From Melioribacteraceae bacterium (GTDB taxonomy: Bacteria; Bacteroidota; Ignavibacteria; Ignavibacteriales; Melioribacteraceae), in contig JAKIUC010000005.1 in assembly GCA_021647785.1 (NCBI GenBank), forward strand, positions 1 through 64,000: a stretch of 64,000 nucleotides of DNA, written 5' to 3'. Below the pieces are notes generated by a model, which saw only the letters and a program-made list of their open reading frames with translations, was not told the origin of the DNA and did no database searches. Positions within the stretch are counted from its first letter, which is position 1; each line of letters starts with the position of its first letter. The position numbers and the translations under genes are program-made. This document shows, in pieces, positions 52,581 through 53,858 of the stretch.

Positions 52581-52663
52581 GGGCAGGCGCCAAAGTAGGA
52601 GAGTTGGGGCGGACTGTAAATCCGTTGGCTAAGCCTGAGGGGGTTCGATTCCCTCCCTGCCCA
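52581..52663 (+). tRNA. tRNA-Tyr (anticodon GTA)
   Basis: Acceptor GGGCAGG with CCTGCCC, discriminator A. Long variable arm (class II), anticodon arm CGGA-CTGTAAA-TCCG, T-arm GAGGG-GTTCGATT-CCCTC. Anticodon GTA reads Tyr codons. First gene of the tRNA/translation cluster. Confidence 0.95.
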
Positions 52664-52824
52664 CAAACGAACGATATTTTTGAAGGAGAATAAGAAACCT
52701 ATTTTTATTCGTACTTCGATAGATATCTAATAAAATGATTGAATGAGAGAATAATATAAATGGAGTTCAACCTATAGAGCCATTTAATTGTGGTTGTATT
52801 GTATAGATTGAGAATATTCCAATT
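52664..52824. other. spacer between tRNA-Tyr and the tRNA-like array
   Basis: AT-rich, no ORF of note. Near its right end TGAGAATATTCCAATTACA already matches the left flank of the following repeat units (TGAGAACTC...ACATTTTGG). Confidence 0.4.
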
Positions 52825-53075
52825 ACATTTTGAAAGACGCTTAGATATTTTATAAGCGGGGGTAACTTAAGTTTGTAGAGTCATCCCGCCCTTGCGGGAT
52901 TGGTTGCTATTTAAGTGAGAACTCATCACTACATTTTGGAAAGACGCTTGTAAAGTTAAATATAAGCGGGGGTAACTCAATTGGTAGAGTCATCCCGCCA
53001 CTGCGGGATTGGTTTCATTGTTATGTTGAGAACTCTGGAATAACATTTTGGAAAGGCGCTTAAGGTTTTAATTAA
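52825..53075 (+). repeat. tandem tRNA-Gly-like array, two decoy units
   Basis: Two units precede tRNA-Gly, with GCGGGGGTAACT at 52856, 52966 and 53076, exactly 110 nt apart. Each unit copies the tRNA 5' acceptor and D-arm (GCGGGGGTAACT-x-A...GTAGAGTC), then has ATCCCGC...GCGGGAT in place of the anticodon arm, keeps the TGGTT variable-loop sequence, but lacks the T-arm and 3' acceptor. Instead come TGAGAA...ACATTTTG(G)AAAG(A/G)CGCTT and a 12-nt spacer to the next AAGCG, with CGCTT/AAGCG able to pair. Neither unit can be a normal tRNA. Confidence 0.85.
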
Positions 53076-53148
53076 GCGGGGGTAACTCAATTGGTAGAGT
53101 CACAGCCTTCCAAGCTGTTGGTTGCGAGTTCGAGTCTCGTCTCCCGCT
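53076..53148 (+). tRNA. tRNA-Gly (anticodon TCC)
   Basis: Acceptor GCGGGGG with CTCCCGC (one G-T pair), discriminator T. D-arm ACTC...GAGT, anticodon arm ACAGC-CTTCCAA-GCTGT, T-arm GCGAG-TTCGAGT-CTCGT. Anticodon TCC reads GGA and GGG. It is the third and only complete unit of the 110-nt-period array. The GIY-YIG start codon overlaps the two bases after the discriminator. Confidence 0.95.
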
Positions 53149-53149
53149 C

Positions 53150-53404
53150 ATGAAATTTTCAGTTTACATACTGAAAAGTTTAGTTGCCGATAGGTATTAT
53201 ATTGGTTCAACTGAAAATGTTCTAAAAAGAATTGAAGTTCACAATAGTTCTCGAGCCAAATGGACGAAAAGATATCAGCCATGGGTTTTAGAATATTTTG
53301 AAGAGTATGAGACACGAGGTGAAGCTGTAAAGCGAGAGAAATTCTTAAAATCACTGAAAGGTATAAGAACGAAACTTGAGTTGGTCAAAACTGACAAAAT
53401 TTGA
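53150..53404 (+). CDS. GIY-YIG nuclease family protein
   Basis: 84-residue single-domain nuclease. It has VYILKSL (the GIY position) and YYIGST (YIG) at about residues 5-21, LKRIEVHN with the catalytic Arg, and a Glu further on in EAVKREKFLKSLKG. It resembles the short UvrC-like stand-alone GIY-YIG proteins. The ATG begins 1 nt after tRNA-Gly's discriminator, so there is no room for a ribosome site; expression may rely on tRNA read-through or leaderless translation. It lies inside a tRNA cluster where no gene is normally found, so it looks inserted. Function unknown. Confidence 0.8.
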   Translation: MKFSVYILKSLVADRYYIGSTENVLKRIEVHNSSRAKWTKRYQPWVLEYFEEYETRGEAVKREKFLKSLKGIRTKLELVKTDKI

Positions 53405-53466: not shown

Positions 53467-53539
53467 GCTGACGTAGCTCAGTTGGTAGAGCACATCCTTG
53501 GTAAGGATGAGGTCGTCGGTTCAAGTCCGATCGTCAGCT
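53467..53539 (+). tRNA. tRNA-Thr (anticodon GGT)
   Basis: Acceptor GCTGACG with CGTCAGC, discriminator T. D-arm GCTC...GAGC, anticodon arm CATCC-TTGGTAA-GGATG, T-arm TCGG-TTCAAGT-CCGA. Anticodon GGT reads Thr. In most genomes tuf follows; here only 53 bp separate it from rpmG. Confidence 0.95.
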
Positions 53540-53592
53540 CAAAACTTTAAGCTAAAAAAGTAATTGAAAAAGTTTTAACGAGGAAAAATAAA

Positions 53593-53767: not shown

Positions 53768-53841
53768 GCGAGAGTAGTTCAATTGGCTAGAGCAGCGGTC
53801 TCCAAAACCGCAAGTTGGGGGTTCGAATCCCTCCTCTCGTG
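53768..53841 (+). tRNA. tRNA-Trp (anticodon CCA)
   Basis: Acceptor GCGAGAG with CTCTCGT (a G-T pair at the first position), discriminator G as usual for tRNA-Trp. Anticodon arm GCGGT-CTCCAAA-ACCGC, T-arm GGG-TTCGAAT-CCC. Anticodon CCA reads the Trp codon. It directly precedes secE. Confidence 0.93.
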
Positions 53842-53858
53842 CTACTAAAAATTGGTAA

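Follow-up and report, generated by a model that had tools for sequence, protein, structure and literature searches.

The 64,000-nt window analysed here, that is, the whole stretch of DNA presented above, contains tRNA-Tyr, tRNA-Gly, tRNA-Thr and tRNA-Trp genes followed by secE, nusG and genes for ribosomal proteins (names read from the translations). Across the window sequence, the heptamer GCGGGGG marks units spaced 110 nt apart, at 52856, 52966 and 53076, and TRF reported a period-110 array at 52820-53102 (score 343, 2.6 copies). Only the third unit was called as a tRNA, of glycine type with anticodon TCC, by ARAGORN (53076-53149) and by Rfam (RF00005, 53076-53148, 65.5 bits). Neither program called a tRNA in units 1 and 2, which lack the 3' half and do not make a complete cloverleaf. 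The features of the region are listed in Table 1.

An ORF with a GIY-YIG domain begins with its ATG directly after the 3' end of tRNA-Gly, without a gap. Its nearest solved chain is UPF0213 1ywl (E = 1.7e-4); it matched no NCBIfam family, and its matches to SLX1 were insignificant (E 0.07). Homologues occupy the same place in several relatives, and one lies past tRNA-Arg at another locus (L169). In the window the tRNA copies lie upstream, and none was seen past the GIY-YIG gene.

Table 1. Positions of features in and around the repeat array, numbered along the window
Feature	Position	Strand	Basis or remark
tRNA-Tyr	52581-52664		ARAGORN
Leader copy 1 (ACATTTTG(G)AAAGACGCTT...AA)	52824..52855	+	repeat D4, TRF array
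Partial tRNA-Gly copy 1: acceptor 5' strand, degenerate D arm, swapped arm, variable loop	52856..52908	+	
Hairpin ATCCCGC-CCTT-GCGGGAT in the place of the anticodon arm (tRNA 27-43), unit 1	52883..52900	+	
Leader copy 2	52931..52965	+	repeats D2, D4
Partial tRNA-Gly copy 2	52966..53014	+	first 27 nt as in intact tRNA
Hairpin ATCCCGC-CACT-GCGGGAT in the place of the anticodon arm, unit 2	52992..53009	+	
Leader copy 3, of the intact tRNA	53043..53075	+	repeat D4
Intact tRNA-Gly (TCC)	53076..53149	+	ARAGORN, Rfam RF00005
GIY-YIG ORF, 84 aa	53150..53404	+	Pfam PF01541, E = 2.3e-17
tRNA-Thr	53467-53540		ARAGORN
tRNA-Trp	53768-53842		ARAGORN

A hairpin in place of the anticodon arm

Each upstream unit consists of a leader and the tRNA as far as the variable loop. 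Positions 1-26 and 44-48 of the tRNA are kept, and the anticodon arm between them (positions 27-43) is replaced exactly by a hairpin of the form ATCCCGC-N4-GCGGGAT. Thus, ACAGCCTTCCAAGCTGT of the intact tRNA gives way to ATCCCGCCCTTGCGGGAT in unit 1 and to ATCCCGCCACTGCGGGAT in unit 2. The flanks of the swap, GTAGAGTC and TGGTT, equal the intact tRNA at 13 of 13 tested positions in both units, and a composite motif allowing up to three mismatches matched twice in the window and never in 100 shuffles. Unit 2 shares its first 27 nt with the intact tRNA without a difference; in unit 1, which is cut after approximately TGGTTGC, identity is 89% across 28 aligned positions. A sequence-only reading had already described the 110-nt spacing of the GCGGGGG starts, the retained 5' half and variable loop, the hairpin in the place of the anticodon arm and the missing T arm. 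All of these descriptions held, and the 3' strand of the acceptor stem proved to be missing from units 1 and 2 as well.

The same reading had pointed to pairing between CGCTT before each start and AAGCG, which is present in all three leaders. The AAGCG partner overlaps the first tRNA bases (52838-52858 region, and likewise in units 2 and 3); the pairing forms in the folds predicted for units 1 and 2 and is absent from that of unit 3. Compared with shuffled sequences, units 1 and 2 alone folded with z-scores of 0.00 and -0.46, and with their leaders at -1.30 and -2.06, to which the leader stem contributes. This test has little power, since even the intact tRNA plus leader reaches no more than -1.44. 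Promoter-like sites in the array were no more frequent than expected by chance, and the one terminator-like match was the unit-2 hairpin itself.

Hairpins elsewhere in the host genome

The replacing hairpin is dispersed in its own genome. We found ATCCCGC-N4-GCGGGAT at 18 exact 7-bp sites and a looser version of the pattern at 64 sites (including those 18), with no match to the control pattern in either case. Three of the exact sites lie in tRNA copies and 15 elsewhere, and the unit-2 hairpin with its CACT loop has an identical sequence at several non-tRNA sites. The hairpin is therefore of the dispersed mobile kind in that it occupies many unrelated sites, above control. Beneath 7 of the 15 non-tRNA hairpins there is an outer stem of at least 3 pairs, for which the chance expectation is ~0.02 per site, and this outer stem varies between sites. 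On another contig of the same genome, two similarly built copies lie upstream of tRNA-Arg(UCU/tct). They run from the 5' part of the tRNA through an ATCCCGC hairpin (degenerate in one copy), which stands where the anticodon arm would be, to the variable-loop sequence. The earlier argument against random decay is upheld by the exact replacement of the arm and by this recurrence beside tRNA-Arg.

At one further site in the genome (L236:727-744; G000 contig C61), the reading frame of a predicted protein (...YEIPVETRHPATAGSVQTPLLGGVGGGLVTLKVYDILG...) takes in an ATCCCGC hairpin and another palindrome close to its C-terminal end. We also scored the hairpins for the tag of REP elements, a GTAG or CGTC-type tetranucleotide at the hairpin base. 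None of the 15 non-tRNA sites carried it; only these were scored, because at the other sites the flank belongs to the tRNA. The genome encodes Y1 (RAYT-type) transposases, and the ATCCCG hairpin occurred in none of the five Y1 loci read. At one locus (L223:1138-1156; G000 contig C52) a palindrome that resembles it, ATAATCCCTCTGGGATTAT, lies ~350 nt from a Y1 (RAYT-type) gene. Given the missing tags and the Y1 loci without the hairpin, we judge an origin by REP/RAYT unlikely, though the similar palindrome at L223 leaves some room for a RAYT role.

A repeat family in the same genome, with ends like AGCGATTCGGGGTCAAAT, contains several internal palindromes. Among copies L258, L262, L263, L265, L271 and L272 (G000), these palindromes differ at fixed positions. 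The clearest of the 16 repeat pairs that we compared have different hairpins between flanks that are 89-94% identical. L272 and L271 agree at 54 of 61 flank positions on each side, while their tips, AATCCCGCAGTGGCGGGAT versus AACGACTTAAGTCGT, agree at only 8 of 19; for L258 and L263 the flanks agree at 30/32 and 27/30 positions and the tips at 7/16. In the other pairs one flank is 64-92% identical because a second palindrome nearby differs too. The base pattern AACCA..TGGTTAA was found 29 times forward and 22 times in reverse versus 44 and 37 for the control, a count that is uninformative, and the true palindromes among its matches have several different tips. In the repeat copies, hairpins vary between nearly identical flanks, as an exchange and without an empty site. 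The change is of the same kind as in the tRNA arms, in that the tip of the stem differs and its base stays. The case for exchange in this family comes from few copies, and independent insertion and deletion of palindromes may account for the differences instead.

Partial tRNA copies in relatives and other lineages

The sequence-only reading had proposed searching for such units near tRNA genes in relatives, and had named their absence there, or assembly duplication, as grounds for abandoning its claim. We found independent arrays in many genomes. As an unselected sample, we took the tRNA-Tyr/Gly/Thr/Trp region around the best tRNA-Gly match in each relative, one tRNA cluster per genome. This yielded 70 loci in 68 genomes, one of them the window's, with Gly and Thr in one locus in 62 cases; 9 of the 77 starting genomes gave no such region. 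By hand classification, 21 of the 68 genomes have partial tRNA copies at the tRNA-Gly cluster. A hairpin replaces the anticodon arm in 14 genomes or the T arm in 6 (one has both), which amounts to 19 of the 21 copy-bearing genomes. The copies were found by tRNA similarity alone in 19 of the 21; those of G019 and G028, both counted among the 19 genomes with a swap, are weak and were found only via the hairpin. One partial copy has no hairpin (L058, G029), and another has a hairpin in the D region only (L059, G010). Swap hairpins have the form TCCCGx..x'CGGGA in every swap genome except G052 and, by one base, G034. Five loci (L098, L105, L156, L179 and L191) show a second hairpin of other sequence (TCCGCC..GGCGGA, CCTGCC..GGCAGG, TCCCGATAGC..) in the D arm or loop.

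To locate the boundaries of the swap, we scanned the 70 unselected loci for replacement of tRNA positions 27-43 or 49-65 and sorted the output by hand. Among the 26 sites retained, all 13 flank positions match in 12 and at least 12 match in 16; 3 of the 26 score 10, which is chance level, and matches judged to be chance never exceeded 10. Excluded before this count were retained arms (L059, L111, L116, L122), an intact tRNA-Gly beside an N run (L083), a tRNA-Trp at a contig end (L081) and matches taken as chance with a score of 10 (L074, L076, L096, L116 twice, L117). Five swaps missed by the scan were seen by eye (L074, L083, L085 and the Gly copies of L111 and L116).

Among the examples read, upstream copies begin at the 5' end of the tRNA and for the most part reach the T arm, breaking off at GGTTC or close to it; the two copies in the window end earlier, past the variable loop. 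Downstream copies run mostly from the D arm or nearby to the tRNA 3' end. There is no tRNA part common to all copies, and hence no common functional remnant, because the halves kept and the arms lost differ. Arrays can be longer than that of the window: five 65-nt units and a degenerate sixth lie past tRNA-Thr in G026, five units at 96-nt spacing lie upstream of tRNA-Gly at L181, and L163 has four matching units, three of them 114 nt apart. Near-full-length copies (L163 in KSB1, and L237) have by reading a mismatched acceptor stem, and ARAGORN called three of the L163 copies as tRNA of unknown type. The ARAGORN call of tRNA-Leu(taa) at L237:649-725 (G123) is a hairpin-swapped tRNA-Gly copy. 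Swapped copies therefore account for some odd or false tRNA calls.

Pattern scans extended the distribution. The anticodon-swap pattern, in which the hairpin comes after a D stem, matched 17 sites, distributed over 14 of 164 genomes of the order, and none for the control. We read 11 of these sites, from 8 genomes, as tRNA copies and the other 6 (L128, L129, L131, L134, L139, L140) otherwise. For tRNA-Thr, an exact T-arm pattern matched 9 sites in 3 of 391 genomes of the class, all 3 from the window's order, and again none for the control. Scanning 84,980 species genomes returned 47 stretches. We read 43 of them as tRNA copies, including the doubtful L190, and 4 otherwise (L146, L150, L184, L186). 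The 47 overlap to some extent: two contigs are each represented twice (L155/L165 and L166/L175), L177 and L185 belong to a single genome, and several stretches, L159, L162, L167, L171, L180 and L182 among them, apparently derive from assemblies that the order scan also covered. One of these, L182, is a downstream copy in a metagenome-derived record titled Melioribacter roseus. Since the stretches were chosen by a pattern that fixes the flanks, they cannot serve as support for the exactness of the boundaries. Their titles name Ignavibacteria, Bacteroidales, Sphingobacteriales, other Bacteroidetes, Chlorobi, KSB1, Zixiibacteriota, Calditrichaceae (the doubtful L190), Absconditabacterales and Shapirobacteria, the last two of which belong to CPR. 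The swapped tRNAs are Gly(tcc), Arg(tct), Lys(ttt) and Lys(ctt), together with Thr(ggt) from the unselected sample. The anticodon-swap pattern had no match in viral contigs, and we rejected a phage origin on this account.

ATCCCG hairpins occur in 75 of 77 genomes of the order, with a mean of 9.4 per genome, and 12 of the 77 have one control match. Genomes with partial copies have only slightly more of them than genomes without (median 9 versus 6, p = 0.013, 21 versus 47 genomes), and both this and their general abundance tell against the exchange model presented below. Two genomes of one genus (G021 and G044, both genus g18) hold 102 and 40 ATCCCG..CGGGAT hairpins versus the mean of 9.4 over 77 genomes, and we recognised no partial tRNA copy in their surveyed tRNA regions. 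Within a genome, hairpins at different tRNAs are more alike than between genomes (mean smallest edit distance 3.2 versus 4.4 when permuted; permutation p = 0.014, 6 genomes), as expected if hairpins are drawn from a local pool.

Origin of the array and related systems

We consider it probable that the array represents scars of a hairpin-for-hairpin exchange, tolerated at tRNA genes only in partial tandem copies. The intact gene is preceded by two truncated tandem copies, each of the tRNA-Gly leader and the first two thirds of the tRNA, and in both copies the anticodon arm would have been exchanged as a unit for the dispersed ATCCCGC-N4-GCGGGAT. Four observations underlie this model: arms are replaced exactly, the hairpin is dispersed, it recurs beside other tRNAs and in further lineages, and a non-tRNA repeat of this genome has differing hairpins at fixed sites. 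Such an exchange would operate on DNA throughout the genome, for example by cleavage of an extruded hairpin at its base, followed by repair or by template switching onto another hairpin. At tRNA genes it would survive in partial copies alone, presumably because the sole intact gene is essential, and these copies would be scars without a function of their own. The cutting might be done by a structure-specific nuclease, possibly the small GIY-YIG protein beside some of these tRNAs, as we guess from the gene neighbourhood. We treat this protein as a hypothetical candidate for the hairpin-cutting enzyme because its closest solved relative is UPF0213 and the SLX1 matches are insignificant. Nearly all cases show the swap, even though many of the copies are fresh in other respects. 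Duplication and swap may therefore go together, and the exchange model leaves such a coupling unexplained. Among the three options offered by the sequence-only reading, scars of repeated insertion came closest, in that a dispersed hairpin took the place of an arm in partial tandem copies. The other two, processing decoys and tRNA-derived small RNAs, found no support.

An integration event could leave similar traces. A GIY-YIG homing element, or another element driven by an integrase, would have entered the tRNA gene, restored the tRNA on one side and left a displaced partial copy, with the hairpin marking the end of the element or destroying the target in the displaced copy. The GIY-YIG ORF directly past tRNA-Gly at 53150 fits this account, and displaced tRNA fragments are known from integration sites, according to the part of the source available to us (PMC9897764). 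A GIY-YIG gene lies in the region of 7 of the 68 unselected genomes, and a partial Gly copy lies downstream in 5 of these 7 versus 2 of the 61 others (Fisher p = 4e-5, from a hand-coded comparison that ignores kinship). Moreover, the order tRNA, GIY-YIG, swapped 3' copy recurs at six loci (L145, L156, L169 with Arg, L183, L185 and L237). However, a GIY-YIG match is missing from 14 of the 21 copy-bearing surveyed genomes and from 35 of the 47 stretches, some of which end near the array. Integration also leaves unaccounted for why the exact swap affects the T arm or the anticodon arm, depending on the copy, and why the same hairpins lie at non-tRNA sites. We therefore regard integration scars as unlikely. 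Two ordinary steps, a partial tandem duplication after which a REP-like hairpin inserts neutrally into the copy not under selection, seem less likely still. The dispersal of the hairpin and its abundance across the order, the Y1 transposases in the genome and the commonness of REP-like repeats in bacteria (the seen portion of PMC3733652) all speak for this sequence of events. Against it, the arm is replaced with exact boundaries and not interrupted, the GTAG or CGTC-type tag is missing at all 15 non-tRNA hairpins, and the swap is already present in 19 of 21 copy-bearing genomes, often in copies that otherwise match the tRNA exactly.

Functional decoys or tRNA-derived regulatory RNAs would explain why the arrays recur in many lineages with recognisable tRNA sequence in each copy, and the z-score of unit 2 with its leader (-2.06) could be read in their favour. 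We nevertheless find a function of either kind very improbable. Retention differs from copy to copy, with the 5' part kept upstream, the 3' part kept downstream and either the anticodon arm or the T arm lost, and the units alone gave no fold signal in what is a weak test. Copies are also lineage-specific and decaying: three of the four congeners read (G002, G003, G004) have no copy at the tRNA-Gly cluster, and G001 has one. These same observations tell against the decoys and the small RNAs of the sequence-only reading, since the relatives' copies keep different tRNA halves, lose different arms and share no functional remnant. An assembly artefact might be suspected given that the window comes from a 99-contig assembly. 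We give this explanation almost no credence, since arrays occur in independent assemblies of many taxa, including a record titled chromosome (CP070813.1), and the hairpin sequences vary between genomes.

Returning to the exchange model, it is possible, if doubtful, that the hairpins represent a class of mobile DNA whose spread relies on structure-guided exchange. Hairpins of any sequence would be traded for one another at the stem base, with repeats, coding genes and tRNA arms as sites and a structure-specific nuclease, such as the tRNA-linked GIY-YIG protein, as the driver. Mobile palindromes are common and their mode of spread is mostly obscure. Here, the exact replacement of an arm reveals what leaves and what enters, and because the replaced structure is a known tRNA arm, the exchange can be reconstructed base by base. 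The swap pattern also hints at what orphan GIY-YIG genes next to tRNAs might do.

Earlier work on related elements concerns the Rickettsia palindromic elements (RPE), the double-hairpin elements of Allomyces and the small dispersed repeats of Nostoc. Within the open-access literature, as represented by titles and the beginnings of abstracts and with most subscription journals outside its range, we found no description of the exact exchange of tRNA arms for a dispersed hairpin across several phyla, and there is a moderate chance that the exchange mechanism itself is new. Its components are already known, as far as the consulted portions of the sources go, namely partial tRNA copies at integration sites (PMC9897764) and dispersed mobile palindromes (PMC3733652, PMC2800124, PMC4478555). 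The closest likeness in form is to the REP elements of the GTAG and CGTC families, short dispersed palindromes that are moved by RAYTs. CGTC families have stems of 8-9 bp, with A-T pairs almost invariably at the first two positions, and loops of 4-5 nt (PMC3733652), a stem and loop like ATCCCGN..NCGGGAT. In contrast to REPs, the hairpins described here have no GTAG or CGTC tag at the 15 non-tRNA sites and replace an existing arm, and the five Y1 loci read are not flanked by the hairpin, one of them having a similar palindrome.

RPEs share with our hairpins the occurrence of palindromes within coding genes, here the single in-frame ATCCCGC hairpin at L236. They are inserted in reading frames, according to the part of the source available (PMC3733652), whereas the unit described here swaps with a structural arm. 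The GC clusters of yeast mitochondria and the RHE hairpins of sponge mitochondria are likewise dispersed hairpins, and GC-cluster units merge and shuffle; these are organelle elements, and the swapping of tRNA arms is unmentioned in the sections seen of either source (PMC4478555, PMC2800124). Finally, at phage and ICE integration sites an intact and a partial tRNA copy flank the inserted DNA, again from the portion of the source at hand (PMC9897764). The present loci differ in that 14 of the 21 surveyed genomes have no adjoining GIY-YIG gene, and in that they hold arrays of units of ~65-114 nt in which an arm is replaced by a dispersed hairpin.
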